From the NCBI GenBank assembly GCA_946699065.1, contig CAMPDV010000359.1:62001-126000 (forward strand): a stretch of DNA of 64,000 bases, given 5' to 3'. The notes beneath the pieces were generated by a model. That model was not told the origin of the DNA and searched no databases. It worked only from the letters and a program-made list of their open reading frames with translations. The translations under genes were made by a program, and so were the position numbers. Below, in pieces: positions 31,548 to 63,898 of this stretch. Every line of letters starts with the position of its first letter. The first letter of the stretch is position 1. This stretch comes from Loxodes magnus (lineage: Eukaryota > Ciliophora > Karyorelictea > Loxodida > Loxodidae).

Positions 31548-31647
31548 TGTATTTAGATAGCAAAGCTTATTAAGTTTAAGTTTATTGGATTATTAAACAT
31601 TAAAGTTCTAAAGGATTTATTTAAATTATATTTAGTTATAATTATAA

Positions 31648-32340: not shown

Positions 32341-34787
32341 TTTATAGTTAATTAAATGTATATTTCCTTAAATTTTATTTTTTTTAATTATAAATCATTT
32401 TTTCTTTCTTTTCTTTAGTAAACTTTCTAGAAATTTTTAAATACTGGAGCATTTCTTTAATCTATAATATAGTAGGTTTATATATTCAACGAAGAAAAAG
32501 CCTTTATTTTAAAATGTGTAATTAACTTAGTAGATATATAACCAAAATGTTTCTCTCTTATAAGCTCTTTTATCTAATAACTTTATTACTATCTTCTGCT
32601 TAAAAATTTTATTTTAAGTAATTAAGATAAAGTTAATATCTCTATTAACTGCTAACTAATTATTATTATTAGGCTATTTTTACATAAAGCTTTATCTCTC
32701 TAATTACATTTCTTAAAACTTCAAATTCACTAAATCTAATTACTAAGCATTTGTTCTAATATTATGTTACCATGCAAATTTTTAATAAATTTAGCTACTT
32801 TACTCTTTTATTAAATCTAAGCATTACTATACCAGACTAAGTTCTAAAATATAGAATTAATTACTTGTATTTATTATTTATAATACAGTCAATTAAGGTT
32901 CTTCATATAAGTATCTTTAGTTTATAGCTACAAATGGTTATACTTCTATTAGTTATATCATCATCTAAGCTATTTTTATATTTAGCTTATTTTTTAATTT
33001 TATAGTTTGTATTTAGCTTATAACTTCCAAAATAAGCTTCAAAGCAGAAAGTAGAAATAATTGGATTGCTATATTAATTACAGTTAATAAAATTATAGCA
33101 TCACTTTATACTTAGCAATAATAAAATTTAATAAACAGCAAAATATTAAAAAATAAGTAAAAATAACTATTTAAGCCTTTTTATTTTTATTTAGCTTATG
33201 AAAATAGAAAAGAGCTATTAACTGCAAAGCTACTATTCTTAAATTTATTTTTTTAAGCCTTTCATATATAAAATTTATTTAGTTAATGAAAGAATTGCTT
33301 GCTTAATAATTGATTAAGAAAGATATATAATAAGTATTTATTTTTTAGATTTAGTTTTATATAGTAACTTATATAAATTTTGATATCCTTTAATTTTATT
33401 AATTTTAAGATCTTTTTTAGTATTCAACCAGTTTTTAGATTTTTTAGCATTCCCAAGATTTGGCTATCTCCATAAAAGTAAATTCTAAATCACCTTCATT
33501 TTTTAGCTTTTAGATGCTTCTCAATTATAGATAGTTCCTGTGATTTTACTCTTCCTACATATGTTTCTAATGTATACACATTTATATAATATCTGCTTAT
33601 TGTAAAATCGTTCAGTCACAAATTAGTAATACTTAGAGGTTTAATTTGCTAAATAGCTTTAAATATAATGATTTAGCTTAAATATAAGTATTCTATTCTC
33701 TCTTTTTATATCTAACAATACTCTATCAAACATAAATCTAAAGGAAGGTAGTATCAACTAACTATTGCTAGTTCCTTTACCTGTAATAGTATTTGTAGAT
33801 ACCCTAAAAAGAGGGAATTCCATATAATTTACTTAATTAATTGACTATTTAATAATTTGCATAGACTCATATAATAAGAAAAATAAGGTTTAGCAAATGT
33901 AATATATTTAATAATTAATAGGATCTAGTTTAATAAAACATAAGGATATACAACTAAAGTTATTAGTAAAGCAGATATTAATAGTCATTTACTTATATCA
34001 ACTTTAGCTTTACTAATTATTAAGAATCTTAATATATACTAATCTTTAGATTTATTACACTAGCTTAGTAAATAACTTTATGTTATTCATATATTTATGT
34101 CTTTTTATATATAATCATAGATGCTTACTTTATACTTATAAATATTCTAAACTTATGAGTATCTTCTGTATCTTCTGTATTATAGTAGGATACCAAACTT
34201 AAATTTAGTATATATATAACTATTTTATCTAGAAAAATAAGTTCTTTGAATAGATTGATATTAATAAAATTGATAAAAGCAAATATATAAGATAAATGCT
34301 AAAAACTATAAAAACTAATAAAAGCTAATAAATAGATAGTTATATAAAGATAGGTTACTTTAAATTAAATGGCTTATTATATTCAAGAGCTTTATTATAT
34401 AATGTACTTTAAACATAAGCTTTAGCCATTTTTGCAATTCAAATATATCAATCATTTTAGACTATATTTAAATAGAAAATACCATCTGCTTTAAATAAAG
34501 AAGAGTGATTATAATTAAGATTCTAAAGATTGTGTATGATTGTTTAAAAAGAATTTTAGTGAATTAAAAGTTTTTTGAAGCATTTCATATAAACTTTCAT
34601 TGAAGAAAATATTAATAACAATAGTTATAGAAGTCGATTTAGCATGCATACTGATAAATGTATATATATCATAAGCTAACTTAATAAATAATGGTAATAG
34701 ATATTCCATATTAAATAATTTAAACCAATTTAAATTAGATATACCATATAAAATTATAAGAGAAAGCAATAGTAGTGTAATCATAGT
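32341..34787 (-). other. AT-rich stretch; possible hydrophobic ORF from 34787
   Basis: A minus frame starting at 34787 (MITLLLLSLIILYGISNLNW) continues without a clear stop for over 2 kb if all three stop codons are read as sense. The two arms differ by an indel around 33500 that would shift this frame in arm 1. In arm 2 a 530-bp insertion falls inside its N-terminal part. TGA is generally rare here. Coding status is therefore doubtful. Confidence 0.25.
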
Positions 34788-35158
34788 AAGCTATACTTTA
34801 ATAGAAAATTTAAAGTTTATTAATTAATTATTTTTATCTTTTACTCAAAAGTTAAAACTTAAATGTTTTAAAATAAATCTAAGAGTTTTTAATTACTCTA
34901 TATATGTTTTTATTTATGGTTATAGCATTAATTGTATAACTAAATCCATTTTACCTTTATTTATAAAATAAGTTCTTGACTAAATATAACTACTACAATT
35001 TAGTATAAATTTAGATTATAATTTAAAGTTTATTTCTAGATATAAACTTAAGACAAAAGTATAGAGTATAAATGTTATTTAAATAAAGATAAAAGGATAG
35101 AGATTTTACTATTAGCAATATTCTTATTTTTAAGCAAAGTATTATAGAGAATATATAA

Positions 35159-35239
35159 GACACTATGGCCGAGTGGTTAAGGCGACAGACTTGAAATCTG
35201 TTGGGTTCTCCCGCGCAGGTTCAAATCCTGCTGGTGTCG
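35159..35239 (+). tRNA. tRNA-Ser(UGA), arm 1 copy
   Basis: Acceptor GACACTA/TGGTGTC, D-arm GCCGAGTGGTTAAGGC, anticodon stem ACAGA/TCTGT with loop CTTGAAA (anticodon TGA). It has the long variable arm of serine tRNAs and T-arm GCAGGTTCAAATCCTGC. A TTTTT run immediately downstream (35240-35244) is the expected RNA polymerase III stop. It decodes UCA. Confidence 0.97.
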
Positions 35240-35502
35240 TTTTTAGAAATTTTATTAAAAAATGACATTTTTAGTAAAGGATTTGTATGATATAGTTCTT
35301 TTGTAGTCTAGAAGAAAAGATTTATCTTTCTCTTAGAAAGAAACTAATTTAGATAAATTGTGGATTTATCTTAAAGTAATAAAATAATTTAATGGCTTAA
35401 ACAGAAATATAAGATGAATAAGTTAAGATAACTACTATTATTAGTCTTATATAAAGGATTTATGAATATGAAAATTTAATTTAGTCAATAAAAATTAAAA
35501 AA

Positions 35503-35582
35503 TGACAGTGGTGGGATTTGAACCCACGCCCCGAAAGACTAGCGCCTAAAGCTAGCGCCTTAGACCACTCGGCCACACTGTC
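35503..35582 (-). tRNA. tRNA-Leu(UAG), arm 1 copy
   Basis: Minus strand: acceptor GACAGTG/CACTGTC, D-arm GCCGAGTGGTCTAAGGC, anticodon stem CTAGC/GCTAG with loop TTTAGGC (anticodon TAG), long variable arm, T-arm GTGGGTTCAAATCCCAC, discriminator A. A T-rich run follows. It converges on the tRNA-Ser gene about 260 bp away. Confidence 0.97.
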
Positions 35583-35689
35583 TTGTAAATATACATTAAA
35601 CTAAGATATAAATATAAACCTATTTATAAGGCATAATACTCCCATTCTTTATAATAATACTAATTTAAATGTTAAATGTTTAGAGATCT

Positions 35690-36570
35690 TTAAGGAACTT
35701 CAACATCGTGATCTCAGGACCGGTTTTTTGAATTGGCCGAAACCAATCCCCTCTGCTACTCTTCTACCATCCTCCTTGCACGTTATATCATTTTGGTTTG
35801 TAAATCTATCCTTTGGTCGTTAGATAGAAATAACTGCAAAAATAGTCTTGTTGCTATAATTACTATTTTTAAAGCTATTTTTCTTGATTTTATTTTTTCC
35901 AATACTATTGTTTAATTTTTTATAGTTTTCAGCATTATCAATATTTGTGATTCCTGTTTCCACAAACTTGGCATTTTGGTTTAGGAATCTTGTATTTTTT
36001 ATTCTAGGTCTGATGCTGTAATGGCTAATTCCTCGGCTCAATATCCATTGCCGAGGTTTGCTTCTGAATCAACTCTGCTTACCATTGGGAGTAAGCTTCA
36101 ACATCTGCTTCATCCGGAATCCCTAGAGCTATTCCTATTGAGCGAACAGTTTTTCCTACTGAGCCTATTTCATTGAATACACCATTTTATTCCCGATCGT
36201 AGGTCTCCATGAAACTCTCTTTCCATTCTTAGATGTCTGCAATCTAAGTCCTGAGGTTTCTATTTTCGATCCTGAGTTTCTTGATTTCCTCTTTGAGTTC
36301 TGAAAAAGCTGTCAGGATTTATACCTGTTCCTCTTGATACAGCGGCATAGTGAATTCTTTTACAGCAGCTGCTTCTTAAGTCTCCAGCACTTTTCTTGGT
36401 TCTTCTTCTTCGTTTGGTGTGACTTAATTTCCTTTTTGCCTCTTTACGCCCATCTTTTTTGTTGTTAGAAGAGTTACTTAGGTCTGCTACTTTTTAAATT
36501 GTCGACCCGCTCCTTGTTTCTTAGTCTCTTCAAAAGCAGAATAGAAGCTTTTTTGAAATCTTTCTACCAT
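35690..36570 (-). CDS. Zinc-knuckle protein, type MVERFQKSFY (arm 1 copy)
   Basis: ATG at 36570 on minus; product starts MVERFQKSFYSAFEETKKQ. Coiled-coil segments follow (LKEEIKKLRIENRNLRTQI), then a knuckle of the form CQVCGNRNHKYWQC, in which Trp is TGA, and a GQIYKPKWYN motif. The frame is continuous with its arm 2 partner at 58427. No TGA ends it before the neighbouring tRNA, so the end is approximate. Related in plan to the intact gene at 43322 but clearly a different subtype. It stands head-to-head with the zinc-knuckle gene at 37566. Nucleic-acid binding is the family inference. Confidence 0.55.
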
Positions 36571-36645
36571 TTTATTTCTTTACTTACATTCTTTAATATT
36601 TAAATTTTATAAGGCTAAAACTTATTAAATATTATTGATAAACTA

Positions 36646-37449
36646 CCTTTTGAGTACTACATAGCAATGAGATATTTAAAGTTTTACGTAAAATTATGAT
36701 AAGAAACATAAGCAAATCCTGACTCTGATATTACCTTTTTATTTAACAAAGCAAAAATAGCTAATCTGAAATATTTTAAAAACTTGGAGAAATTAACTTA
36801 ACTTTTTGAAATAGATGTATAGAATATTGAAGACAGCAAATTATTTTTGAGTAAAGCTTATAACAAAATCTAAGAGAAGTTCTTTTAAGATGCTACAGAA
36901 AAGATGAGATCAATGTAAACTGCACACTTTTACTTTGAAGATATTAATAAAGAAACAAGATAGTTTCCATTTTATACATATACGAAACTAAATAAATTTA
37001 TGATTAGAGAAATAATTTCTATTTATAAATTTAGAACCTTTTGCTATAATTTCTAATACGACTTATAACAAAGACACTTCAAAATCAAATACTCTGAGAT
37101 TTGCATATGTGGAGAATTAGATAGCTTTGTTCATATTGAATCATGTGAAGCTCTACAAGATCTTATTTAGGAATTTAAAGATTTTAAAAATTACGACCTA
37201 ATAAAAATGTTAACATATAATTAAAGTTATCTTATTCTTAATTTCCCTACTTAAAAACAGCTAAGAGAAATAGATTTTAGAATTAAAAGCTTCCATTAAC
37301 AATTATTGAAGAGAAGAATTGAAATCCTATAGTGGAATGAGGAAATACTACAGTGGCAGAACGATTTGGATAAAGTTGTAGCAGTAGAAGGAGAAGAACA
37401 AGAACAAGAACAAGAACAAGAAGAAAAAGAAAAAGAACATGAGCAATGA
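36646..37449 (+). mobile_element. 5'-truncated LINE ORF2 (3' end) with 15-bp target duplication
   Basis: In-frame from the insertion point to TGA 37447-37449. The product includes RHFKIKYSEICICGELDSFV followed by HIESCEAL. This is a CxC...HxxxC finger like those ending the LINE ORF2s at 20.5 kb and 53.3 kb. The Glu/Gln/Lys-rich tail ends HEQ. A 15-bp direct repeat ATTATTGATAAACTA lies at 36631-36645 and 37546-37560, and the inserted segment ends in TTA repeats. This is the signature of target-primed insertion. The insertion sits between two divergent zinc-knuckle genes. Confidence 0.75.
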
Positions 37450-37565
37450 ATAAAATAGGAATGATGAATTAGATGTAAAATAAACAGTTTTATTATCTAT
37501 ATGAAAATATAGTAAAGACATATTAAATGATATTATTATTATTATATTATTGATAAACTAAAAAA

Positions 37566-38350
37566 ATGGTTGAATGTTTCAAAAAGGGATTTTATAACAG
37601 CTCTGTGAAGAAGAGAAATCCAGAAACAACTTCTCATCAGTCTTCTTACACCTAACAATAACCTTTTTCTACTTAATAACCTGGAATATAACAAGAAGAA
37701 CTGAAACAGCCTAAGAAAGCGACACATACTGAAACGCCAACGTCAGATGAATAGACAAGGAAGCAGATAAAATCTACCCTTCACCAACAGGTCTCTGATG
37801 TCAATCCTTCTGGCTAAACGAGCATGGAGTAGCTCATCAAAGTGGTCCTAAACCTCTAAGAAAAAGATCAGGAAGATCAGGAAGGAGAACGAGAATCTAT
37901 CACAACTGATCCAGCATGGATTGCAAGATAACTTTAGATTTCAGAATGGCTAATTAAGAAAGGGAGATTGACGCCTTATAAAAGTATCAGCAGGAGTAGT
38001 TTAACCAGGCTAACTCATAATGTAAAGGACACAAGACTAGAATCAACAGATTGAAAGCATCTTGTAAAGTCAGAGAAGCTAGCAGATCCCATTAGAGTAG
38101 GTAAATTCTAATAAGATGAAGATTGAAAGGAACCCTCAGCAAGAAAAAATAAATGAACCAAAACTCAAGATTTAGAAATTATGCTACTACTGTAAAGATA
38201 AATAACACCTTTGGAAGAATTGTAACGAATTTAGAAAAGTCAAAGAGAAATCTTAGAAGAAATAATTATAATAATAAAGAAGAAAAAGAAAAATTAGATC
38301 TGGTGTAATGATAAAAGGTCAGTTTACAGATTTAAGAAGACCTCGAAAAT
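37566..38350 (+). pseudogene. Zinc-knuckle gene, type MVECFKKGFY, frameshifted (arm 1 copy)
   Basis: ATG 37566; product starts MVECFKKGFYNSSVKKRNPE. Blocks homologous to the intact copy at 43322 follow in more than one frame (MEQLIKVVLNLQEKD, then a coiled coil), and a complete knuckle CYYCKDKQHLWKNC lies at 38182-38223. At least two frame changes are needed. The arm 2 copy (57676-56880) shares them where compared, so decay preceded the duplication. The minus-strand frame 37727-37542 is a shadow. Confidence 0.6.
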
Positions 38351-38529
38351 AAAAGAACTTCTAATATAAAAAATCAAAAGAAAAGATAATTAAACGTAGT
38401 AAATACTACAAGAAAAAAGAATATAACAATAAACCTAAAAAAATATAAAAAAATGAAAAAATTGTAAAATATTAAAAAATATTAAAATTAATGTTAAAGT
38501 GGTTGTGGAATAATAAAAAAAGCAAACAA

Positions 38530-39003
38530 AAAAACAATACTAATAAACTAATCTCTTAATCCAATTCTTCTTCACTATCAAAATACTCTTTCTTACCTTC
38601 TTCTATTTTATGAGCAACTACTGAAATTATTTTTATTTATCTTCCGCTTATATATACCAAGTCTAACCTTATAGCAGTATTTAATAATAGATAATGTATT
38701 ATTTACATTTAATAAATATACTTTTAAATACAAATTAAAATATATTAAATGTATATCTTCAATTTTCATTTTCATTGCTACTCTATCCCATACTCTTCCT
38801 GCTACATCATATTCAAGTGAATATGCTCTAAACTTATTTCATCCATTCAAATCTATCATTACATTAAATTATCTTTCTCCATAGTGGCATTTAAAGAATA
38901 GAGTTACTTCACATGATGCACGAACTACTTTCATATCCTTTAATTTCCAATTCTTTAATATTAAATTTTATGTTTCTTTGTGAAGCATTTTACATATAAA
39001 CAT
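38530..39003 (-). CDS. Unknown protein with 37-nt intron (arm 1 copy)
   Basis: ATG at 39003 on minus; exon 1 to 38658. A 37-nt intron (38621-38657, GTATAT...TTCAG) restores the frame into VVAHKIEEGKKEYFDSEEEL. The product has a compact mixed N-terminal domain (VVRASCEVTLFFKCHYGER, DLNGWNKFRAYSLEYDVAGR) in which one Trp is TGA. An acidic stretch and a hydrophobic C-terminus follow (SLLVLFFCLLFLLF), perhaps a tail anchor. The arm 2 copy (56238-56710) has the same exon lengths and splice sites. The stop is not clear. No family recognised. Confidence 0.5.
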
Positions 39004-39328
39004 CTTTCTATTATAAAAAAATGGTCCCAAAAAGTAATCATCACTTATCTAGTTAAGCAAAGCTCAAAATGATTACTTAATCTATCTGGAATTTCTCTTA
39101 AGTGAGAACCAAAAGCTATAATATTCGATTCAAGAGCTACAAAGAAATATAATAGTCCTATAGAATAACATCACTGGAATTCACATCAATAGCAAAGAGA
39201 TTAACATGTAACTTCATCTTATTCCTTCGACTGAACAAATTAATTAGAGAATTTAAGCGAAAAAAGCAAAATTAGAGATTTTTCGATAATAAAATAAGTA
39301 AATTTGTGAAAATTGGGTTTCTTAGATC

Positions 39329-39780
39329 ATGCAAAATCAAGGAAACAATCCGATGGACATAGAAGAAATATACCATAGTAATTTACTATCAGGAAAACAA
39401 AAATCGTATGCTGATACTTAAAAAAATGGGCTCAAGATAAGAGACTGTTGGCAGTTATTAAAAAAGTATGAATACGAAATCCAAAAATAATGGTATAATT
39501 TAAACAAGTTGTGATGCACACAAGATTGCAGAATATTCAGAAAAAAATGATTTTAAAGCACTTAGAATGTTCCCTAATCTCAAGCAGATAGTAAGTAATT
39601 TCAACAGAAGCCAGTTAGGATTCGACACAAAAGAGATACTGAGAAAGAAAAGATTCAGATTTATCAAGAGACATGATAACGAAGAATAGAAATTTAAAGT
39701 AGAAGATTAATTTTTTAAACTTAACAAACTTTTGATTCGTGACAAAACTAATGATGTTGAAGTCACGTTAATCTATTACT
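39329..39780 (+). pseudogene. Hypothetical ORF MQNQGNNPMDIEE, frame changes (arm 1 copy)
   Basis: ATG 39329; starts MQNQGNNPMDIEEIYHSNLL. After about 65 residues the coherent reading moves to another frame (KNDFKALRMFPNLKQIVSNF, EILRKKRFRFIK, DQFFKLNKLLIRDK). The second half matches the second half of the interrupted ORF at 24793-25850. The arm 2 copy runs 55913-55462 on minus. Unknown function; possibly part of a mobile element, since the copies are dispersed. Confidence 0.35.
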
Positions 39781-40815
39781 ATTTTTTTCTTTTTTTACAA
39801 TGTTTAATTTCCTATGTATAGATTTAGATGAATTTAGAGCCTAATTAGTTTGAAATTTTCAAGTTATTTAATATTAAAATTTTAGATTCATTTTTATAAA
39901 AAAAGTATTATAATAAACTTATGTTAATGATCTCTTTGAAACTCGCTATATAACAACTCTAATTAATAATTTTTTTGTGAGTGGCTAAATAATCAATTTT
40001 AGTTAAAACGATATCTTTCTTTATTTGAGGCTATTTCTACAACATATAGAGGAAAATGTTAATTTGTATCTTTATTTTTTCCTCTATTTTACTAAATTAA
40101 TTTTTATTTTTCTTTAATCCTTAAATTTACTATGTTGCGATAATTTGGATTAATTTATTTTTAAAGCAAATAAAAATAAATTAAATTAAGTTTATATTTG
40201 CGGTTATTCAAATTGAAGATAATAATCAATTTTAATAAATTTAATATATATCTTTGCTTATTTTTAACTTAGTTTTATGGTTTTTTATTATAAATCAAAT
40301 AGATTTTTTAAATATCTTATGAAAATCAAGATTTTCAAAGCTAGTTTATGAATAAAGTTAATGCTTTTTATCGAACAATTTCTAAATAATAAATTTACTT
40401 TTTACTCTATTTTATTTATTTAAATGGGAGTTAAATTTAAAAGTTTATTAGTCATTTTTACTTTTTTCTTATTTGTCTTATTTTAAGAATATAAATTAAA
40501 TTTAAGTTACTTTTTTAGTTCAAGAAGATTAAGTTTTAAATAAAGCACAAGATATAAAAGTAAATTAAATATAATTGAAAAATAGCTAATCTTATTATAA
40601 ATAATATACAAGCAAATACTATCAAAAACACTTAGAAGATGATATAAGTAGATAGAAATAAGATATTAAGATAGTCATAGTAATTTAAATTAAATTGTTT
40701 TGTATAGTGATTATTAGTATGCATATTTTCAAAATTTATAATTTAAATTATTTTAAAGCGAAGATTATTAACTTTTTGCCTTTTTTATGCAATTGCATGA
40801 TATATAAATCTCTGA
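39781..40815. other. AT-rich stretch shared by both arms, nothing recognised
   Basis: The sequence is conserved between the arms only as part of the duplication. No motif or RNA seen. Confidence 0.5.
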
Positions 40816-40855
40816 AGTCCTATGGTGTAATGATAGTACTTCGGACTCTCTAAAT
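40816..40855 (+). pseudogene. 5' half of a tRNA-Gln-like gene (arm 1)
   Basis: AGTCCTATGGTGTAATGATA followed by GTACTTCGGACTCTCTAAAT matches the acceptor strand, D-arm and 5' anticodon arm of eukaryotic tRNA-Gln. If CT is duplicated by mistake, the loop would read CTCTAAA, with anticodon CTA or TTA depending on alignment, that is a UAG/UAA-reading tRNA-Gln. No T-arm or 3' acceptor strand follows. The same half lies in arm 2 at 54429-54390. Confidence 0.5.
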
Positions 40856-40863
40856 TTTTTCCA

Positions 40864-41108
40864 ACTTTGTTTACTCTCAAAATTTTCTCGTAGTGCAAAA
40901 ATATGAGCAAAAAAATATTTGATTTTTTTCTATTCGAAAATCATTTTATTATTCTCTACTTCTTAAAACCATTTTTAAAATTATTTCCCTTCTTTCAAAT
41001 CTCTATCCCTTATTTTTTTTAACTTAGTCCGTCCCGAAAATCTTCTGCTGCATAAAATTCAAAGCAAAAAAAAAAATAAATTTTTCACGATTTCATGCTT
41101 TACATACT
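40864..41108 (+). other. About 245 bp present in arm 1 but absent from arm 2
   Basis: Arm 2 joins TTTTCCAACTT directly to TTCTCTCCTTTTTC; arm 1 has some 245 bp between these. The insert contains TAGTCCGTCCCGAAAATCTT, of which related versions recur at about 43143 and 44228. It may be an insertion in arm 1 or a deletion in arm 2. No clear terminal repeat was found. Confidence 0.5.
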
Positions 41109-45579: not shown

Positions 45580-48500
45580 TCATTCATGCTCTCAGTTGTA
45601 CACTATCATAATGTAGAATTGATGCTTACATCCTATGTTGTTATAACCTGAACTTACCCCCTTATAAATACTTTTACACATAAATATACATTCTATAAAA
45701 AATAATAATAAATAGTAACTTACCACCTAATTAAGATAATATTAAAAAACGACTACGATCTAAACCAAGAGAATTATAGAACCTTTTACAAGCTATAGTT
45801 AAAATAAACTATTTCACTCTAAATAGAATAATAAAAGGCAATTTACTAACTATAGTTTTAAGAATATTAAATGCCAACTTACTCACTATAGTTTTAAAAA
45901 TATTAAACGCCAACTTACTCACTATAGTTTTAAGAATATTAAACGCCAACTTACTCACTATAATTTTAAGAATATTAAATGCCAAACTTACATCCTATAG
46001 TTTTAAGAACATTAAATGCAAAACTTACAATCTATAATTTTAAGAATATTAAACGTCAAATTTACCAGCTATAGTTTAAAAGAATTAAATGCAAAACTTA
46101 CATCCTATAGTTTTAAGAATATTAAATGTTAAACTTACTCACTATAATTTTAAGAATATTAAATGCCAAACTTACATCCTTAGTTTTAAGAATAGTAAAT
46201 GTTTACTTACAGACTATATTTTGAAGAATAATAAATTTCTAAATTACCAGCTATAGTTTTAAGAATATTAAATATTCATTTACCGTCTATAATTTTAAGA
46301 ATATTAAATCTCAAACATACTAACTAATTTTAAGAATATTTAATGCCAACTTACTCACTATAGTTTTAAGAATGTTAAATATCAAACTTACAGTCTATAG
46401 TTTTAAGAATATTAAATGTTAAACTTACCCCCTATAGTTTTAAGAATATTTAAATTTCAAACTTACAGACTATAGTTTTAAGAATATTTAAATTTAAAAC
46501 TTACAGACTACAGTTTTAAGTATATTATATTTCAAACTTACCCCCTATAGATTTAAGAATATTAAATATCAAGCTTACCAGCTATAGTTTTAAGAATATT
46601 AAATGTCAAACTTACCTTCTATATTTATAAGTATATTAAATGTCAAACTTACCAGCTATAGTTTTACGAATATTAAATGTCAAGCTTACCAGCTATAGTT
46701 TTACGAATATTAAATGGAAAGCTTACACACTATAATTTATATAGTATTAAAATGTCAATTTTACTTTCTAAAATTTTACGGATATTAAATATCAAACTTA
46801 CAGACTATAGTTTTAAGAATATTAAATTTCAAACTCACTCTCTATAGTTTACAAATATTAGATTTTAAACTAACCCCCTATAATTTTAAGAATATTACTA
46901 TCTATATTTTTAAAGAATATTAAATATCAAACTTACCTATAAAAAATTATAAAATTTACTTTCTGTAAAAGAATTATGTGTCGAAATTTGTCGTACTTCC
47001 TATATAGTGATTAGAAATTAACCAAGTTCTTAAATGGTAACAGAATCACTTACAACCTGTAAATAAATTATTCAAAATAGAACTTACTCAATTGCATTTT
47101 AATACTATCTCCATTCCCTATATTATTCTAAGTTATTGTTTCGTAGTTTTTCAAGATTTTTTTGTTCTTTAGTAAGTCCAAATCGAGATTAAATAAATTA
47201 ATTTTTTATTCAATCTAATTCTTAATCTACTAGATGGTAATATCTTATTTGACCTCGAGCTTTAATGTCAACTTGTTAGGCGATACTATTGTTATGGAAA
47301 TGTTCTAGTTCTAATTTTTTTACTACATAATTTGCTAAGACTATTAAAGATGCAAAATTTTTTATTAAGATGGCAGTTATTAAGAAAATTAGATCTAACT
47401 CTTTTACTATTGAATCTAAGTGCTTGTTATCGAATTCAACAGTGTCTTAAGACTCTAATTTGATTTTTTTATTTTATCACTCTGTGACTACTAAAGCTAA
47501 CTTTATTGCTATTATGTTTGCTCCTATAGTTAGGTTTTATTATTTTATAGCTTTTAGATTTTGCTTTATTTATTCAATATATCTTTATTTAATTGCTATA
47601 TTTCAATTTAAAATTATTTGATTTCACTCTCTTTATCGAATATATTTTATGATTATTTTTAAAGTTAAGTTTAAAATTTATTTTCTTACTTAGTCATTTA
47701 TTCTTATAAGCTTCTTATATTATTCTACATTTCGGTGATTACTTATTCCTTTTATAAATATAATTCTTAACTTTATAAGAATGTATTATTATCAAAAAGC
47801 TCTGTATCATTAACTAGTTATTCTAAAATAAAAGCGTTAAGTTCCTACTTTTATAAGCAACTTAAATTTTAACTAGGTACTGTTCAAGTTTATTAAGCCA
47901 CACTTTAAATTAACTTTTGGCCCTACTCGGCTTTCTTTTAGAATCTTTCATAGGGTATTTCTTAATTTTCTTGAAGTTTTTAGATGCAAGAAATAGTTTT
48001 TATTAGTTTAAGTAAGTTCTATTCAAATAGGGATGAAACTCTTGTAATATTCTTGATTTGCTCTTATGATTTTCTTTTTGCTATAATAATAACTCTCTTA
48101 ATGAGACTTTTAGTGACTTCTTCTATTTCTTTTTATTGTTTTTCTTTCAGTGATTAAGTTAGTTTAAAACAAGTATTCATCTTTTCAATCTTTTAATTTA
48201 AATCTTCTTGGTGACTCTATAATTCTTACATTTTCTGCTTTTTAAAGTTTTATACTGATTAATCGTATTCTGATTATGTTTAAATTTCGCAATTTCTATG
48301 GGTTTCTTCCCAGCAGCTTATACAAATTAATTTTGAATGAACTTCTCAAGCCATTTTAGTTTTCTTGTTATGAGTGATACACTAAGTCACAGTTACTTGT
48401 CTTTTAATTTCTTCATTCTTCATATTTGTTTTTACTCTCGATCAGTCTATTTTGTATTTATTTTCAGCATTACAAATAGCACATTTAAAGGGAAATTCGT

Positions 48501-48714
48501 GAAGGGACTTATTGATAAGACATGGATAGCAAGAAAGATGACCGCATTATTGAGTCAGAGGAACTTGCTCTGAGTTGTAAGGATTATGACAAATAGGGCA
48601 AGTATTTTCATGGTTTTCAATTTCAGAGCAGGTATTTTCAGGGGAGATATATACAGAGGAGGAATTTTCAGAGGTTTCTTCAGGAGGGGTAACTTCAGGT
48701 GAGCTATTTCCCAT
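45580..48714 (-). CDS. RING / B-box-like / coiled-coil protein with C-terminal ubiquitin-like domain and micro-exon tail
   Basis: ATG at 48714. The first exon (48714-47088, 1627 nt) encodes 542 residues in one frame. Residues 39-81 are a C3HC4 RING: Cys39, 42, 57, His59, Cys62, 65, 78, 81 (TCPICHNPY, QCGHLSCYPCL, CAIC). A B-box-like cluster follows (QCITHNKK, CISCWEETHRNC), then about 300 residues of Gln-rich coiled coil. Residues about 472-542 match ubiquitin: ITIVSPNKLTLKLEVKQDIT, IQQIKNQIEQK, GDSIKMQL, the last aligning with the final strand before the RLRGG tail. The exon ends in phase 1 at GTAAGT. The transcript then enters the array of 43 small introns (45603-47087), which would add 132 coding nt, and a last exon with TGA at 45592-45594 or 45580-45582. 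Probable ubiquitin ligase (inference). Confidence 0.75.
45603..47087 (-). other. Array of 43 tiny introns separated by one-codon micro-exons
   Basis: Minus-strand GT...AG units, 5' to 3': 47057-47087, 47029-47053, 47000-47022, 46963-46996, 46937-46959, 46902-46936, 46878-46898, 46842-46874, 46805-46838, 46768-46801, 46730-46764, 46693-46726, 46656-46689, 46619-46652, 46582-46615, 46545-46578, 46508-46541, 46470-46504, 46432-46466, 46395-46428, 46358-46391, 46324-46354, 46287-46320, 46251-46283, 46214-46247, 46179-46210, 46142-46175, 46105-46138, 46069-46101, 46032-46065, 45995-46028, 45958-45991, 45922-45954, 45886-45918, 45850-45882, 45819-45846, 45793-45809, 45760-45789, 45727-45756, 45693-45723, 45661-45689, 45633-45657, 45603-45629. 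Lengths 17-35 nt. Of the intervals, 39 are exactly 3 nt, one 6 (47023-47028), one 9 (45810-45818), one 0 (46936/46937). The 3-mers vary: CTG and TGA five times each; GGG, TCT, GAT four; AAA, TTA two; thirteen others once. Central units share GTAAGTTTGACATT...CTTAAAACTATAG; end units do not. Confidence 0.85.
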
Positions 48715-50630: not shown

Positions 50631-51148
50631 TTAAAACCGCCATAGTTGTTCGAAGGTGAACAACAAGGTCATCTTCATCAGAGGTTGGGGAAGTTAAGTA
50701 CCCATAATCGACTTTATGTCTTCCTCTGCTTTGGTTTGAACTTGAGACATAAGATTCTTAGACCTTCGACACTGATTTGGCTTGGCTTGGCTTAGTTTAG
50801 CTTAGTTTAGTTTTAATTCTGGAACGAAAAAGAAATAATATTGCGAGCTTCATCAGAGGTGGGGAATTTAAGTACCCATAATTGACACATGTCGTCCTCT
50901 GCTTTGGTGATGCAATGAGACACAATTCTGCCATGTCCTTGGACCTCCAACAAGTAGATAAGATTACGAATATTCTTAAATTATATCAGTATTGAACATT
51001 TTTATCAGTACTGAATAATTATACCAGTATTGAACAAGGTCTACCAGTATCTGATAATTTTATCAGTAAAAAATTCTTGTCAGTATGAAACATTTTTTTT
51101 AAGAGCTGCGCACCAATGAGAGTGCTATGCGCTCTATAATCAAATTTA
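50631..51148 (+). mobile_element. SINE-like element S1, copy c
   Basis: Same body as copy b, including the duplicated TTCATCAGAGGT...CTCTGCTTTGG block (second unit about 50848), and the same hairpin tail (AGAGTGCTATGCGCTCT near 51119) before ATTT repeats. The stem carries a C-to-T change at the loop edge. It is flanked by TTATTATATATTTT on both sides (about 50617-50630 and 51149-51164), read as the target duplication. Element S3 begins immediately after. Confidence 0.75.
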
Positions 51149-51165
51149 TTTATTATATATTTTAA

Positions 51166-54295: not shown

Positions 54296-54389
54296 GAAAA
54301 TGAAATACTGAATAAAAAATGTTCTTCTATTTTATTATTTTCTGAAGATTTTTTTGATCTAAAGAAAAAGGAGAGAAAAGTTGGAAAAA

Positions 54390-54429
54390 ATTTAGAGAGT
54401 CCGAAGTACTATCATTACACCATAGGACT
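54390..54429 (-). pseudogene. 5' half of a tRNA-Gln-like gene (arm 2)
   Basis: Same sequence as 40816-40855 in arm 1, including the extra CT in the anticodon loop and loss of the 3' half. Confidence 0.5.
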
Positions 54430-55461
54430 TCAGAGATTTATATATCATGCAATTGCATAAAAAAGGCAAACAGTTAATAATCTTCGCTTTAAAATGATTT
54501 AAATTATAAATTTTGAAAATATGCATACTAATAATCACTATACAAAACAATTTAATTTAAATTACTATGACTATCTTAATATCTTATTTCTATCTACTTA
54601 TATCATCTTCTAAGTGTTTTTGATAGTATTTGCTTGTATATTATTTATAATAAGATTAGCTATTTTTAAATTATATTTAATTTATTTTTATATCTTGTGC
54701 TTTATTTAAATACTTAATCTTCTTGAACTAAAAAAGTAACTTAAATTTAATTTATATTCTTAAAATAAGACAAATAAGCAAGTAAAAATGACTAATAAAC
54801 TTTTAAATTTAACTCCCATTTAAATAAATAAAATAGAGTAAAAAGTAAATTTATTATTTAGAAATTGTTCGATAAAAAGCATTAACTTTATTCATAAACT
54901 AGCTTTGAAAATCTTGGTTTTCATAAGATATTTAAAAAATCTATTTGATTTATAATAAAAAACCATAAAACTAAGTTAAAAATAAGCAAAGATATATATT
55001 AAATTTATTAAAATTTATTATTATCTTCTATTTGAATAACCGCAAATATAAACTTAATTTAATTTATTTTTATTTGCTTTAAAAATAAATTAATCCAAAT
55101 TATAGCAACATAGTAAATTTAAGGATTAAAGAAAAATAAGAATTAATTTAGTAAAATAGAGGAAAAAATAAAGATACAAATTAACATTTTCCTCTATATG
55201 TTGTAGAAATAGCCTCAAATAAAGAAAGATATCCTTTTAACTAAAATTTATTATTTAGCCACTCACAAAAAATTTATTAATTAGAGTTGTTATATAGTGA
55301 GTTTCAAAGAGATCATTAACATAAGTTTATTTTTATACTTTTTTTATAAAAATGAATCTAAAATTTTAATATTAAATAACTTGAAAATTTCAAACTAATT
55401 AGGCTCTAAATTCATCTAAATCTATACATAGGAAATTAAACATTGTAAAAAAAGAAAAAAA

Positions 55462-55913
55462 TAGTAATAGATTAACGTGACTTCAACATCATTAGTTTTG
55501 TCACGAATCAAAAGTTTGTTAAGTTTAAAAAATTAATCTTCTACTTTAAATTTCTATTCTTCGTTATCCTATCTCTTGATAAATCTGAATCTTTTCTTTC
55601 TCAGTATCTCTTTTGTTTCGAATCCTAACCGGCTTCTGTTGAAATTACTTACTACCGCTTGAATTTAGGGAACATTCTAAGTGCTTTAAAATAATTTTTT
55701 TCTGAATATTCTGCAATCTTGTGTGCATCACAACTTGTTTAAATTATACCATTATTTTTGGATTTCGTATTCCTGCTTTTTTAATAACTGCCAACAATCT
55801 CTTATCTTGAGCCCATTTTTTTAAGTATCAGCATACGATTTTTGTTTTCCTGATAGTAAATTACTATGGTATATTTCTTCTATGTCCATCGGATCGTTTC
55901 CTTGATTTTGCAT
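55462..55913 (-). pseudogene. Hypothetical ORF MQNQGNNPMDIEE (arm 2 copy)
   Basis: Counterpart of 39329-39780 with the same start and the same mixed-frame structure, plus a few substitutions. See the arm 1 entry for the segments read. Confidence 0.35.
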
Positions 55914-56237
55914 GATCTAAGAAACCCAATTTTCACAAATTTACTGATTTTATTATCGAAAAATCTCTAATTTTGTTTTTTCGCTTAAATTCTCTAATTA
56001 ATTTGTTCAGTCGAAGGAATAAGATGAAGTTACATGCTAATCTCTTTGCTATTGATGTGAATTCCAGTGATGTTATTCTATAGGACTATTATATTTCTTT
56101 ATAGCTCTTGAATCGAATATTATAGCTTTTGGTTCTCACTTAAGAGAAATTCCAGATAGATTAAGTAATCATTTTGAGCTTTGCTTAACTAGATAAGTGA
56201 TGATTACTTTTTGGGACCATTTTTTTATAATAGAAAG

Positions 56238-56710
56238 ATGTTTATATGTAAAATGCTTCACAAAGAAACATAAAATTTAATATTAAAGAATTGGAAATTA
56301 AAGGATATGAAAGTAGTTCGTGCATCATGTGAAGTAACTCTATTCTTTAAATGCCACTATGGAGAAAGATAATTTAATGTAATGATAGATTTGAATGGAT
56401 GAAATAAGTTTAGAGCATATTCACTTGAATATGATGTAGCAGGAAGAGTATGGGATAGAGTAGCAATGAAAATGAAAATTGAAGATATACATTTAATATA
56501 TTTTAATTTGTATTTAAAAGTATATTTATTAAATGTAAATAATACATTATCTATTATTAAATACTGCTATAAGGTTAGACTTGGTATATATAAGCGAAAG
56601 ATAAATAAAAATAATTTCAGTAGTTGCTCATAAAATAGAAGAAGGTAAGAAAGAGTATTTTGATAGTGAAGAAGAATTGGATTAAGAGATTAGTTTATTA
56701 GCTTTGTTTT
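56238..56710 (+). CDS. Unknown protein with 37-nt intron (arm 2 copy)
   Basis: ATG 56238; exon 1 is 346 nt, ending in phase 1. Intron 56584-56620 (37 nt, GTATAT...TTCAG) differs from arm 1 by one base inside the intron. Exon 2 continues VVAHKIEEGKKEYFDSEEEL. Splice sites and exon lengths match arm 1 exactly, which supports a real gene. The stop codon remains unclear. Confidence 0.5.
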
Positions 56711-56879
56711 TTTGTTTGCTTTTTTTATTATTCCACAACCACTTTTAACATTAATTTTAATATTTTTTAATATTTTACATTTTTTCATTTTTTATATATT
56801 TTTTTAGGTTTATTGTTATATTCTTTTTTCTTGTAGTATTTACTACGTTTAATTATCTTTTCTTTTGATTTTTTATATT

Positions 56880-57676
56880 AGAAGTTCTTTTATTTTCGAG
56901 GTCTTCTTAAATCTGTAAACTGACCTTTTATCATTACATCAGATCTAATTTTTCTTTTTCTTCTTTATTATTATAATTATTTCTTCTAAGATTTCTCCTT
57001 GACTTTTCTAAATTCTTTACAATTCTTCCAAAGGTGTTATTTATCTTTACAGTAGTAGCATAATTTCTAAATCTTGAGTTTTGGTTCATTTATTTTTTCT
57101 TGCTGAGGGTTCCTTTCAATCTTCATCTTATTAGAATTTACCTACTCTAATGGGATCTGCTAGCTTCTCTGACTTTACAAGATGCTTTCAATCTGTTGAT
57201 TCTAGTCTTGTGTCCTTTACATTATGAGTTAGCCTGGTTAAACTACTCCTGCTGATACTTTTATAAGGCGTCAATCTCCCTTTCTTAATTAGCCATTCTG
57301 AAATCTAAAGTTATCTTGCAATCCATGCTGGATCAGTTGTGATAGATTCTCGTTCTCCTTCCTGATCTTCCTGATCTTTTTCTTAGAGGTTTAGGACCAC
57401 TTTGATGAGCTACTCCATGCTCGTTTAGCCAGAAGGATTGACATCAGAGACCTGTTGGTGAAGGGTAGATTTTATCTGCTTCCTTGTCTATTCATCTGAC
57501 GTTGGCGTTTCAGTATGTGTCGCTTTCTTAGGCTGTTTCAGTTCTTCTTGTTATATTCCAGGTTATTAAGTAGAAAAAGGTTATTGTTAGGTGTAAGAAG
57601 ACTGATGAGAAGTTGTTTCTGGATTTCTCTTCTTCACAGAGCTGTTATAAAATCCCTTTTTGAAACATTCAACCAT
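56880..57676 (-). pseudogene. Zinc-knuckle gene, type MVECFKKGFY, frameshifted (arm 2 copy)
   Basis: Counterpart of 37566-38350, start at 57676. The knuckle CYYCKDKQHLWKNC is replaced by one with a Ser/Asn-type change near 57020 (last Cys region GTAAAG). The frame changes are as in arm 1. The plus frame 57515-57700 is a shadow. Confidence 0.55.
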
Positions 57677-57696
57677 TTTTTTAGTTTATCAATAAT

Positions 57697-58351
57697 ATAA
57701 TAATAATAATATCATTTAATATGTCTTTACTATATTTTCATATAGATAATAAAACTGTTTATTTTACATCTAATTCATCATTCCTATTTTATTCATTGCT
57801 CATGTTCTTTTTCTTTTTCTTCTTGTTCTTGTTCTTGTTCTTGTTCTTCTCCTTCTACTGCTACAACTTTATCCAAATCGTTCTCCACATATGCAAATCT
57901 CAGAGTATTTGATTTTGAAGTGTCTTTGTTATAAGTCGTATTAGAAATTATAGCAAAAGGTTCTAAATTTATAAATAGAAATTATTTCTCTAATCATAAA
58001 TTTATTTAGTTTCGTATATGTATAAAATGGAAACTATCTTGTTTCTTTATTAATATCTTCAAAGTAAAAGTGTGCAGTTTACATTGATCTTATCTTTTCT
58101 GTAGCATCTTAAAAGAACTTCTCTTAGATTTTGTTATAAGCTTTACTTAAAAATAATTTGCTGTCTTCAATATTCTATACATCTATTTCAAAAAGTTAAG
58201 TTAATTTCTCCAAGTTTTTAAAATATTTCAGATTAGCTATTTTTGTTTTGTTAAATAAAAAGGTAATATCAGAGTCAGGATTTGCTTATGTTTCTTATCA
58301 TAATTTTACGTAAAACTTTAAATATCTCATTGCTATGTAGTACTCAAAAGG
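57697..58351 (-). mobile_element. Truncated LINE ORF2 end, arm 2 copy with internal deletion
   Basis: Flanked by the same 15-bp duplication (57682-57696 and 58352-58366). Relative to arm 1 it lacks about 245 bp, joined at an AGA microhomology near 57886, which removes most of the Cys-His finger. The insertion therefore predates the duplication and the deletion followed it. Confidence 0.7.
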
Positions 58352-58426
58352 TAGTTTATCAATAATATTTAATAAGTTTTAGCCTTATAAAATTTAAATA
58401 TTAAAGAATGTAAGTAAAGAAATAAA

Positions 58427-59310
58427 ATGGTAGAAAGATTTCAAAAAAGCTTCTATTCTGCTTTTGAAGAGACTAAGAAACAAGGAGCGGGTCGACAATT
58501 TAAAAAGTAGCAGACCTAAGTAACTCTTCTAACAACAAAAAAGATGGGCGTAAAGAGGCAAAAAGGAAATTAAGTCACACCAAACGAAGAAGAAGAACCA
58601 AGAAAAGTGCTGGAGACTTAAGAAGCAGCTGCTGTAAAAGAATTCACTATGCCGCTGTATCAAGAGGAACAGGTATAAATCCTGACAGCTTTTTCAGAAC
58701 TCAAAGAGGAAATCAAGAAACTCAGGATCGAAAATAGAAACCTCAGGACTTAGATTGCTGACATCTGAGAATGGAAAGAGAGTTTCATGGAAACTTACAA
58801 TCGGGAATAAAATGGTGTATTCAATGAAATAGGCTCAGTAGGAAAAACTGTTCGCTCAATAGCAATAGCTCTAGGAATTCCGCATGAAGCAGATGTTGAA
58901 GCTTACTCCCAATGGTAAGCAGAGCTGATTCAGAAGCAAACCTCGGCAATGTATATTGAGCCGAGGAATTAGCCATTACAGCATCAGACCTAGAATAAAA
59001 AATACAAGATTCCTAAACCAAAATGCCAAGTTTGTGGAAACAGGAATCACAAATATTGATAATGCTGAAAACTATAAAAAATTAAACAATAGTATTGGAA
59101 AAAATAAAATCAAGAAAAATAGCTTTAAAAATAGTAATTATAGCAACAAGACTATTTTTGCCGTTATTTCTATCTAACGACCAAAGGATAGATTTACAAA
59201 CCAAAATGATATAACGTGCAAGGAGGATGGTAGAAGAGTAGCAGAGGGGATTGGTTTCGGCCAATTCAAAAAACCGGTCCTGAGATCACGATGTTGAAAT
59301 TCCTTAAAGA
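58427..59310 (+). CDS. Zinc-knuckle protein, type MVERFQKSFY (arm 2 copy)
   Basis: ATG 58427, MVERFQKSFYSAFEETKKQ. Open through the coiled coil, VRSIAIALGIPHEADVEAYS and the knuckle CQVCGNRNHKYWQC (59024-59065, Trp from TGA) to GQIYKPKWYNVQGGW and beyond. Differences from arm 1 are mostly single substitutions (for example Asp to Tyr before IEPRN), and the frame is kept in both. There is no TGA before tRNA-Leu at 59415, so the 3' end is approximate; it may have lost its stop. Confidence 0.55.
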
Positions 59311-59414
59311 TCTCTAAACATTTAACATTTAAATTAGTATTATTATAAAGAATGGGAGTATTATGCCTTAGAAATAGGTTTATATTTATATCTTAGTTTA
59401 ATGTATATTTACAA

Positions 59415-59494
59415 GACAGTGTGGCCGAGTGGTCTAAGGCGCTAGCTTTAGGCGCTAGTCTTTCGGGGCGTGGGTTCAAATCCCACCACTGTCA
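59415..59494 (+). tRNA. tRNA-Leu(UAG), arm 2 copy
   Basis: Identical in structure to 35503-35582: acceptor GACAGTG/CACTGTC, anticodon loop TTTAGGC, T-arm GTGGGTTCAAATCCCAC. A TTTTTT run follows at 59495. Confidence 0.97.
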
Positions 59495-59756
59495 TTTTTT
59501 AATTTTTATTGACTAAATTAAATTTTCATATTCATAAATCCTTTATATAAGACTAATAATGTAGTTATCTTAACTTATTCATCTTATATTTCTGTTTAAG
59601 CCATTAAATTAGTTTATTACTTTAAGATAAATCCACAATTTATCTAAATTAGTTTCTTTCTAAGAGAAAGATAAATCTTTTCTTCTAGACTACAAAAGAA
59701 CTATATCATACAAATCCTTTACTAAAAATGTCATTTTTTAATAAAATTTCTAAAAA

Positions 59757-59837
59757 CGACACCAGCAGGATTTGAACCTGCGCGGGAGAACCCAACAGAT
59801 TTCAAGTCTGTCGCCTTAACCACTCGGCCATAGTGTC
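59757..59837 (-). tRNA. tRNA-Ser(UGA), arm 2 copy
   Basis: Same cloverleaf as 35159-35239 with anticodon loop CTTGAAA. T run downstream on the minus strand. Confidence 0.97.
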
Positions 59838-60357
59838 TTATATATTCTCTATAATACTTTGCTTAAAAATAAGAATATTGCTAATAGTAAAATCTCTATC
59901 CTTTTATCTTTATTTAAATAACATTTATACTCTATACTTTTGTCTTAAGTTTATATCTAGAAATAAACTTTAAATTATAATCTAAATTTATACTAAATTG
60001 TAGTAGTTATATTTAGTCAAGAACTTATTTTATAAATAAAGGTAAAATGGATTTAGTTATACAATTAATGCTATAACCATAAATAAAAACATATATAGAG
60101 TAATTAAAAACTCTTAGATTTATTTTAAAACATTTAAGTTTTAACTTTTGAGTAAAAGATAAAAATAATTAATTAATAAACTTTAAATTTTCTATTAAAG
60201 TATAGCTTACTATGATTACACTACTATTGCTTTCTCTTATAATTTTATATGGTATATCTAATTTAAATTGGTTTAAATTATTTAATATGGAATATCTATT
60301 ACCATTATTTATTAAGTTAGCTTATGATATATATACATTTATCAGTATGCATGCTAG

Positions 60358-60888
60358 ATCTTTAATAGGGGATATTATTTTAAGAAAAGTGATAAAAGCT
60401 AAAAGAGTAAATTACTAAATATAAAATAAAAACTGAAAATATAAGCATTAATCTAGAGTAGTTCTAACTATATTTTTAGACTTACTTTAGCAAAATTCAA
60501 TTCACTTAAAATAATCATTTAATAGCTAAAAATAAGTTTTAATTTTTATACAACTGCAAATGTATTTGAGAGTATAATTTTTCCACTTCTCATGTTAAGA
60601 AGATTTCAGAAAATAAGAGGTTTAAAATAGAATGGAAATTTAATTATAGATTTAATGAAAGTATTTAAAAATTAAAAATTATAAATTTTATATGTTAATA
60701 AAGATAGAAATCGATATTATTCAAGAGGAGTATAATATCATATATAAGAGACATATTTATATAAACAATTAAATATCTATGGGATATGCTTGCAATCATA
60801 AAATTCTTAGTCAAACTTCAAGAGAAACATCCTATAAAATGTTTATTAATTGAAGTATAGAAATCCTAACTAAGATTTAGAATATTTG
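60358..60888 (+). other. About 530-bp insertion present only in arm 2
   Basis: Arm 1 (read in the same sense) goes from CAGTATGCATGCTA through AATCG to ACTTCTATAACTATTGTTAT. Arm 2 has some 530 bp between the equivalent points and then resumes ACTTCAATAACTATTATTAT. The insert is AT-rich and non-coding as far as I can see. It splits the hydrophobic frame starting at 60212. Terminal repeats are not obvious. Confidence 0.6.
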
Positions 60889-63205: not shown

Positions 63206-63898
63206 TCATTTAAAGAGATAATCACACAACTAAGCTAAGCAAAATCCTAATAAGAACAAGAAAACTGTTACTAAAACTTTCTATCCTTTCTTATTTTCAC
63301 TCTTGTCTTCTTGATTCTTCATTTTATTAATTTTTATTATTTTTTCATTTCTCTTTCTCTTACAGTTAATTTTCTAGCAACTTTCATAGTCATCTTGGAA
63401 ATAAATTTCTGAACAAATTGAGTAAAAATTAAACAAAGTTTGAGAATGTAGAGAGTAAGATTTTTTATTAACTAAGGTAGTTTAGGCTAATTAATTTTCT
63501 ATATTAGATGCATATGATATTTCTCTTATTTTTCTTAGTTTAAACTTTAATTTATTTTAGAATATTCTAGAGTTTTCTTTTCTACCTGGAGAATTTCTGT
63601 ACTTCTACAATAAAACAGATTTCTTATGCTCTATTTCCTCGTTAGATATAATACTGCTAGCACTTATAGGACTTATAGGACTAATTGGACTACTTTCATT
63701 GTTTGATTTAAAAAAGTTACCAGAACTAGTATTTTCTAGCTCTATTAAAGGAGAAAAAGATATTTGTTTGATACCTTTTTATTCGAATGTAGGGCTAGGA
63801 GAGTCGTTTTACTCTAAGGGCAGTAATCCACCTGAATTTATATAGAGACTTTTTTGTTCTTCAATTGGCTGAAGTGAGGAGTTATTAATAGACAGCAT
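63206..63898 (-). CDS. Tail-anchored membrane protein, unknown function (arm 2 copy)
   Basis: ATG at 63898, TGA 63206-63208, 230 residues. It has the same length and plan as the gene at 31648: disordered Ser/Pro N-terminus with SPIS repeats, basic middle, one C-terminal helix (FLLGFCLAQLCDY). Substitutions relative to arm 1 do not break the frame. Confidence 0.7.

Follow-up and report, generated by a model that had tools for sequence, protein, structure and literature searches.

A train of predicted mini-introns and one-codon exons in a RING and ubiquitin-like domain gene family of Loxodes magnus

How should a gene be read when its 3' part dissolves into dozens of GT..AG segments that mostly stand one codon apart? 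Such a gene lies on the minus strand of a 64,000-nucleotide (nt) stretch of the Loxodes magnus genome (assembly GCA_946699065.1, contig CAMPDV010000359.1, positions 62,001 to 126,000), referred to throughout as the window, in which 43 consecutive GT..AG segments of 17–35 nt each occupy positions 45603–47087, directly after a ubiquitin-like (Ubl) domain. The initial annotation of the window had proposed from the letters alone that these segments are introns and that the spacers between them are one-codon exons in phase 1. We find that this array very probably does consist of spliced mini-introns, each spacer being a one-codon phase-1 exon. The proposal is strongly supported by conserved splice sites and spacing, by codon-like change in the terminal triplets, by a pattern of exon lengths in step with the gene tree, and by a conserved tail predicted before a TGA. 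The initial annotation further predicted 44 added codons after residue 542; the roughly 30 central units may each be spliced singly or may at times be skipped in frame, in which case an mRNA would carry fewer of these codons.

The array was parsed in two ways. The first parser, which used dynamic programming with a preference for multiples of three, returned 44 segments, namely the chain of the initial annotation plus one extra segment upstream. The second parser, in which every spacer length of 0–12 nt was charged equally, returned 43 units from 47087 to 45603 and departed from that chain at unit 37 only, where it chose a 1-nt exon and a 25-nt intron instead of a 9-nt exon and a 17-nt intron. 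At this site a related locus (L009) reads GTAATGG, preceded by an AGT triplet, where the window reads GAAATAG. The 9-nt exon is the sole choice that keeps the frame and reaches the family tail ..YREWGLYN-TGA, and its 17-nt intron has the modal length of L. magnus introns (PMC11441545). Parsing thus confirmed the segments as annotated, and with the in-frame choice at unit 37 also the exon lengths: 3 nt in 39 cases and 6, 9 and 0 nt once each. The gene is laid out as follows, from its 5' to its 3' end.

47088–48714, minus strand: first exon of the host gene, 1627 nt (from translation).
46937–47087, minus strand: 5' cassette, in which five non-repetitive introns enclose exons of 3, 6, 3 and 3 nt, pattern 3-6-3-3-0 (from the parse and the Ubl tree).
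46936–46937, minus strand: zero-nucleotide exon, AG abutting GT, just before the core (from comparison of loci).
45850–46936, minus strand: core array of tandem relatives, with introns mostly 33–35 nt and 3-nt exons of variable sequence (from the repeat scan, the parse and unit-wise conservation).
45603–45846, minus strand: 3' cassette of eight non-repetitive introns, with terminal triplets CTT, ATC, GTG, AAT, GGG and GAT (from the parse).
45793–45818, minus strand: unit with a mutated 5' splice site (GA; GT in L009), where a downstream GT gives the 17-nt intron and the 9-nt exon (from comparison with L009 and the tail).
45592–45602, minus strand: start of the last exon, with an in-frame TGA stop at 45594–45592 and a spliced tail ending in ..YREWGLYN (from in-silico splicing).

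In the translation of the host gene, TAA and TAG are read as Q and in-frame TGA as W, a code known for the group to which L. magnus belongs. The predicted protein runs from a RING region (~48469–48600) through a B-box-like and coiled-coil region and a Q-rich region to the Ubl domain (~47098–47307). Because the first exon is 1627 nt long, the array is entered in phase 1. A tandem repeat of period 37 covers 45850–46897 of the core.

Controls were run on both chain length and spacing. When the array stretch was reversed or reverse-complemented, chains of 2 and 1 units were obtained; the same controls on the 20 other stretches fetched from the genome gave chains of 1–8 units, once 16, and the rest of the window, scanned in the same way, held chains of at most 7 units with mixed spacers. 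Window positions 16484–17281, read backwards (not complemented), yield 23 GT..AG-like segments with mixed spacers, probably an effect of composition. As a reversed window can yield a 23-unit chain, chain length alone proves little, and it is the regular spacing that counts. In the 3' flank of the core, six 3-nt spacers were matched by 0 of 2000 dinucleotide shuffles, and in the 5' flank three 3-nt spacers were matched by 1 of 2000; the unit count of the 5' flank alone (5) was attained in shuffles (maximum 6). The flanking units, which are not tandem relatives, therefore follow the rule of the core, as the initial annotation had observed. Its further point that simple tandem copying is insufficient holds as well: a simple tandem repeat with GT and AG present by chance is ruled out by the flank shuffles together with the unit-wise constraint described below.

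The spacing also stands out across the genome (705,730,643 bases in 7,843 contigs, both strands searched), where TATAG-N3-GTAAG occurs 38,581 times, compared with 3,408 times for N2 and 2,430 times for N4; the reversed patterns occur 8,059 (N3), 2,008 (N2) and 2,613 (N4) times. Even when reversed, TATAGNNNGTAAG is frequent (8,059 occurrences, as against 2,613 for the reversed N4 pattern).

The array recurs in a gene family. Core DNA of the window matches 53 places in the genome, and 20 stretches were fetched, one of which continues another, so that 19 loci are represented. Each of these 19 other array loci has a Ubl domain just upstream of the array on the same strand. Eight loci were picked by Ubl match alone (L041, L042, L045–L048, L051 and L052), drawn from two sets of Ubl matches of 78 and at least 150 places, and each carries an array; array and Ubl share a strand in 28 of 28 loci. 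The largest array has 163 parsed units (L010). Some loci are near-duplicates (L017/L018; L021/L026; L013/L015; L022/L025/L027/L028), and unit number varies between near-identical copies, which the assembly could also cause; since this comparison is confounded by shifts of units, the change in unit number alone was taken from it. Six RING relatives (L030–L035) match the window protein up to residues 428–466 and not its Ubl domain, and no array was found within 1.5 kb of the match in any of them; L033 and L034 have a seven-unit chain with spacers of 1, 10 and 12 nt.

Exon lengths in the arrays differ between branches of the family. The 5' pattern 3-6-3-3-0 is common to nine genes of one Ubl clade (window, L012, L014, L023, L037, L038, L041, L051 and L052), where in L012 a GC 5' site makes the zero exon. 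Another clade has 5' lengths of 3-3-0 (L017, L019, L020, L022 and L043, and also L039 if one 5' site is GC). When 27 Ubl sequences are placed in a tree, a single branch with support of 100/99 separates the two exon-length cassettes, although the window Ubl has a top identity of 61% to any other copy. Labels on the tree were assigned by us, with six rows unlabelled and L046 and L048 labelled by kinship only. This agreement of exon lengths with the gene tree is part of the support for one-codon exons. A 6-nt exon near the 3' end was found in nine loci with the anchored parse.

Spacers were counted over the window and the 20 fetched stretches, some of them near-duplicates, with all spacer lengths scored equally: of 850 in all, 785 measure exactly 3 nt and 826 have lengths divisible by three. 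For the unit-wise analysis, core units were defined by wraparound alignment to a local consensus with an interior match of at least 72%, chosen blind to GT and AG, in spans that run to the terminal cassette. Among 675 such units from 21 loci, mismatches to the local consensus affected 21 of 2,700 GT/AG positions (0.8%), 1,034 of 19,825 interior positions (5.2%) and 645 of 2,016 spacer positions (32%). Changes at the T of GT were to C in 7 of 10 cases, giving GC-AG introns. For the array of the window, the initial annotation had described the splice dinucleotides as preserved in every unit. Neighbouring core units are spaced by exactly 3 nt in 624 of 628 cases, compared with 161 of 658 core introns that differ in length from their own consensus; the spacing is thus fixed where intron length is not, again as first described. 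Its remark that spacers are richer in G+C (GC) than the introns also extends to the family (0.33 compared with 0.13 in intron interiors, 21 loci).

The unit-wise count was made in three ways. A first unit-wise count took its spans from the GT/AG parser and could for that reason overlook lost units; it gave 16/2,704 changes at GT/AG, 935/17,161 in interiors and 641/2,013 in spacers, a contrast at splice sites of about ninefold that became about sevenfold in the blind recount. An intermediate count that reached 1.5 kb beyond the arrays took in AT-rich flanks (104 of 777 units lay past the chain end) and was set aside; it gave 3.6% at GT/AG and 6.0% in interiors. Insertions, at 17 bases in spacers and 197 in introns, occur at a similar rate per slot. 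Spacer triplets change six times more than the neighbouring intron interiors (21 loci); the tail may be under diversifying selection, or the introns under constraint. The difference between spacers is 0.22–0.35 for adjacent units and 0.47–0.59 for all pairs; as adjacent units share spacers more than distant ones, units arise by local duplication.

Spacers of zero length also occur in the family. At 21 of the 22 loci compared, a zero-nt exon immediately precedes the core, counting L012 (in which the next 5' site is GC), the exception being L016, so that the AG-to-GT juxtaposition is found at a conserved place in the family. In L051 and L052, 28-nt introns follow the Ubl domain joined AG to GT with 0 nt between them and an occasional 3-nt exon. 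The AACTTAGGTAAG junction occurs 4,018 times genome-wide, as against 90 times for the reversed pattern. Since spacers are mostly 3 or 0 nt, what is kept is divisibility by three and not a fixed distance, which points to a reading frame.

The same zero-length exons lend themselves to another explanation, in which recursive (ratchet) splicing, or removal in a single long intron, takes out the core or even the entire array, so that most triplets would be absent from the mRNA and only the terminal cassettes would be exons. The junctions before the core, their filling of most of the L051 and L052 arrays and their excess across the genome are all consistent with it, as is the fact that the frame survives skipping between any two units. 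Under removal as a single intron, or with no splicing at all, the inner sites would be unused and should drift like their surroundings, and the sevenfold contrast between splice dinucleotides and interiors disfavours this. A 1.4-kb intron would moreover be exceptional in L. magnus, in which introns have a mean length of 19.3 nt and a mode of 17 nt and 93% are at most 25 nt long (PMC11441545). We consider this explanation unlikely, though it is the best placed of the alternatives.

The ends of the array are not repetitive and are homologous between distant relatives, with introns there that vary in length. The last seven triplets were aligned from 18 distinct loci with an anchored parse that prefers 3-nt exons and uses GGG as anchor; from 21 loci, L017 was dropped for lack of a forward parse, L046 for too few units and the window for its 9-nt exon. 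The phase-1 reading begins with Leu in 13/18, followed by Tyr or Phe in 18/18, a variable third residue and Glu or Lys as the fourth in 17/18. Trp-Gly comes next in 18/18; as GGG is the anchor, the independent evidence here is limited to the preceding T and the following G (each 18/18). If the last intron is taken to stop at the first AG, the final residue is Leu at 14 of the 18 loci, Phe at 2, Pro at 1 and Met at 1. The family tail is thus usually L-Y-x-[E/K]-W-G-L..stop, TYREWGLYN in the window. Leu is encoded by TTG, CTG, TTA, CTT and CTA and Gly by GGA or GGT, and because these codons vary synonymously the middle base of the exon behaves as the wobble position. In the terminal triplets the ratio of non-synonymous to synonymous change (pN/pS) is lowest in phase 1 (0.47), compared with 0.68 in phase 0 and 1.03 in phase 2. 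Triplet identity without GGG is 0.66, compared with 0.52–0.58 in four sets of intron positions and 0.35 with a mismatched index. Terminal introns are 19–38 nt long (for example 19–32 and 29–38 at given places), with counts modulo 3 of 45/52/47; as their lengths show no bias modulo 3, the frame is kept only if the introns are removed.

Entry into the array and exit from it were compared across loci. At 22 of 28 loci the array is entered in phase 1, as judged by the first 5' site in the parse. In phase 1 a TGA is met within 10 codons in 18 of 20 loci, with a parse that favours a last exon starting with TG. Triplet counts in phase 1 give no clear depletion, observed against expected numbers being 10 and 15.7 for TGA, 20 and 29.5 for TAA and 24 and 13.4 for TGG. 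Codon-position GC was not decisive either (RING exon 0.28/0.24/0.27; Ubl 0.25/0.23/0.35; phase-1 spacers about 0.39/0.37/0.24).

These ends bear on a second alternative, a plain minisatellite in a 3' untranslated region or in intergenic DNA, with GT, AG and the 3-nt spacing inherited by copying. Its appeal is that the core is a tandem repeat whose copy number varies. Copying does not account for non-repetitive flanks that follow the rule, for the selective conservation of splice sites, for the codon-like change in terminal triplets or for an array placed after the Ubl domain on the same strand at every one of the 28 loci, and we regard this origin as very improbable. Slightly less probable still is a family of mobile introner-like core introns that spread between paralogs and left the triplets as by-products: the core consensus is alike in paralogs with strongly different Ubl domains, as such spread might produce, but the greater likeness of spacers in adjacent units is what tandem duplication predicts. 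That the segments are internal eliminated sequences, i.e. DNA removed in development and not RNA introns, is suggested by the organism being a ciliate but is hardly credible, as the assembly, a 706-Mbp macronuclear one (PMC11441545), implies that the array is present in macronuclear DNA and the boundaries are GT-AG with GC-AG variants.

Several observations weigh against the succession of one-codon exons. Core introns, mostly of 31–36 nt, exceed in length 93% of the introns of L. magnus. Splice dinucleotides show no deficit of aligner-placed deletions (25/2,700 at GT/AG, 168/19,825 in interiors), and such deletions are more frequent per site in spacers (40/2,016); most units with a "deleted" splice base still display GT and AG, which suggests that the GT/AG deletions are mostly a matter of aligner placement. 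The terminal triplets are on average only moderately above intron positions in conservation, with identities of 0.39–0.93 per exon, and two of the seven are variable (0.39 and 0.48). Of the 22 phase-1 entries, 17 share one conserved start, with 14 or 17 nt of the Ubl match still to come, and so count nearly as one, and L009, L042 and L046–L048 are late starts; the remaining 6 of 28 loci enter in phase 0 or 2, and in five of these (L010, L013, L024, L026 and L040) the parse was judged to begin elsewhere than at the true first intron, L045 being ambiguous. Phase 0 reaches a TGA at once in 15 of 20 loci, which makes the stop test weak, and the phase is for this reason fixed by the upstream frame and not by the TGA test. 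In the predicted window tail, TGA codons 567, 572 and 578 must be read as W, with the stop at 589. The nearest of them lies 33 nt from the stop, and no coding TGA occurs within 21 nt of the stop in L. magnus according to PMC11441545. A search for a spliced retrocopy with a pattern of joined terminal exons gave 0 matches in the genome, with 1 for the reversed control. Finally, one array of a different type looks decayed (L050, described below).

We infer from sequence comparison that the segments are spliced, and propose an order of splicing and a translation of the core on the same footing. In the 3' part of the gene, spliceosomal mini-introns would alternate with phase-1 exons of one codon (3 nt) each, and splicing would probably proceed unit by unit from 5' to 3'. 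Removal of an intron would join its triplet to the upstream exon, after which the next 5' splice site would stand 3 nt (or 0 nt) further on; stepwise splicing of this kind would need no exon recognition. Given the tiny introns of L. magnus, splice sites are presumably recognised across the intron. Sites 0–3 nt apart could hardly be bound together, and some units may therefore be skipped, with products that stay in frame. Because each unit contributes a multiple of three, units could be gained, lost or skipped without a frameshift, and with TAA and TAG as Q and TGA as W away from the end, none of the triplets would be a stop. The predicted product is a RING/B-box-like/Ubl protein whose C-terminal tail is added residue by residue and closed by a short conserved peptide. 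The published introns of L. magnus were annotated from Hisat2 mappings (PMC11441545), a procedure likely to miss 3-nt exons; this could explain why the arrays go unmentioned in the available text of that paper.

More tentatively, the arrays may be a frame-locked device for diversity, in which any 5' site can be joined to any later 3' site in frame, one gene could yield a spectrum of C-terminal tails and the triplets are kept diverse by selection. The absence of stops among the triplets under this code and the change of unit number between near-identical copies fit such a device. We think this possible but doubtful; if true, a unicellular organism would possess a repertoire of tails generated at the level of RNA.

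Domains in the host protein and its relatives were assigned from Pfam profiles and PDB matches. The RING of the window protein is a weak Pfam match under the cut-off, residues 36–140 align to TRIM21 (PDB match, E 0.0027), and the Ubl domain (residues 470–539) matches a ubiquitin-variant PDB entry only (E 0.0024). In a Pfam scan of eight relatives, RING was found in five (L009, L014, L020, L021 and L024), always under the cut-off; PF00240 was over the cut-off in L009 and L014 and under it in L010; Rad60-SLD was over it in L014 and L021; L013, L017, L020 and L024 gave no Ubl profile; and B-box was over the cut-off in L017 only. No protein relative of P0001 was found among 7,545 candidates, with a query that was unspliced and a tail that was not searched.

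Further features were noted in the genome and in the window. L049 (G000:C4:2193800-2198300) holds an array of another sequence type, with introns of 23–24 nt and 3-nt spacers, downstream of a RING match under the cut-off, and L050 (G000:C6:136300-138700) holds an array of the same type with the same intron and spacer lengths. L050 and parts of L049 have a decayed look, several units beginning with GC rather than GT. Contigs C278, C328, C554, C655, C1520 and C590 each carry many Ubl copies, often ~10–30 kb apart, like long gene clusters or large repeats. In the window, an inverted duplication (31547–40868 and 54377–63999; four blocks of 98.0–99.2% identity) flanks the 13.5-kb stretch with the array gene, and a tRNA pair in one arm (35159/35503) has its counterparts in the other (59415/59757). 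A tRNA-like gene at 30261–30344 on the minus strand has an odd ARAGORN anticodon call and is also found by Rfam. A dispersed repeat of ~315 bp, with a 19-bp tandem unit inside, occurs at 4014–4328 and 50848–51158 with 93% identity.

No report of trains of one-codon exons was found in open-licence PMC papers, and within that literature the statement of the initial annotation that there is no published example stands. Ordinary introns of L. magnus have GT-AG ends. The array introns resemble them in being very short and differ in that core units are mostly 31–36 nt and terminal units 19–38 nt, with 3-nt exons between them; length was here taken as typical of the species and not as defining for introns at large. 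Recursive splicing in Drosophila is known from very long introns. The AG-to-GT juxtaposition, an exon of length zero, is like its ratchet points, whereas the Loxodes introns are 28–36 nt and follow one another by the dozen. Among the nearest known systems, and likened by architecture only, are the micro-exon genes (MEGs) of schistosomes, whose coding region consists mostly of very small symmetrical exons, whose alternative splicing gives near-identical proteins and whose families are apparently restricted to platyhelminths (PMC4350168). Both systems have consecutive small exons with lengths in multiples of three (here 826 of 850 spacers); in Loxodes, by contrast, an exon is a single codon or has zero nt, and the exons stand in tandem within ciliate Ubl genes, with as many as 163 parsed units per array. 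Plant microexons such as those of APC11 and VPS55 are exons of 1–15 nt that are spliced in, conserved and hard to find with short reads, and in the text available of that paper they are isolated or two adjacent, not in trains as in Loxodes (PMC8831610). Introner elements of Amoebophrya and others are repeated introns that spread in the genome (PMC7789003), and the Loxodes copies examined stand in tandem within one gene family.

If the reading as one-codon exons is true, exon size goes down to one codon and to zero nt in long runs, a spliceosome for tiny introns is tested against neighbours 0–3 nt apart, and a tandem repeat can grow in a gene yet stay invisible to the reading frame; many near-identical introns in series would also make a natural experiment on splice-site constraint. 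Short-read spliced mapping likely loses such exons, and similar genes may hide elsewhere. Microexons, zero-nucleotide exons and minisatellites are each known; what is new in Loxodes is that they would come together in tandem units which leave the reading frame untouched.
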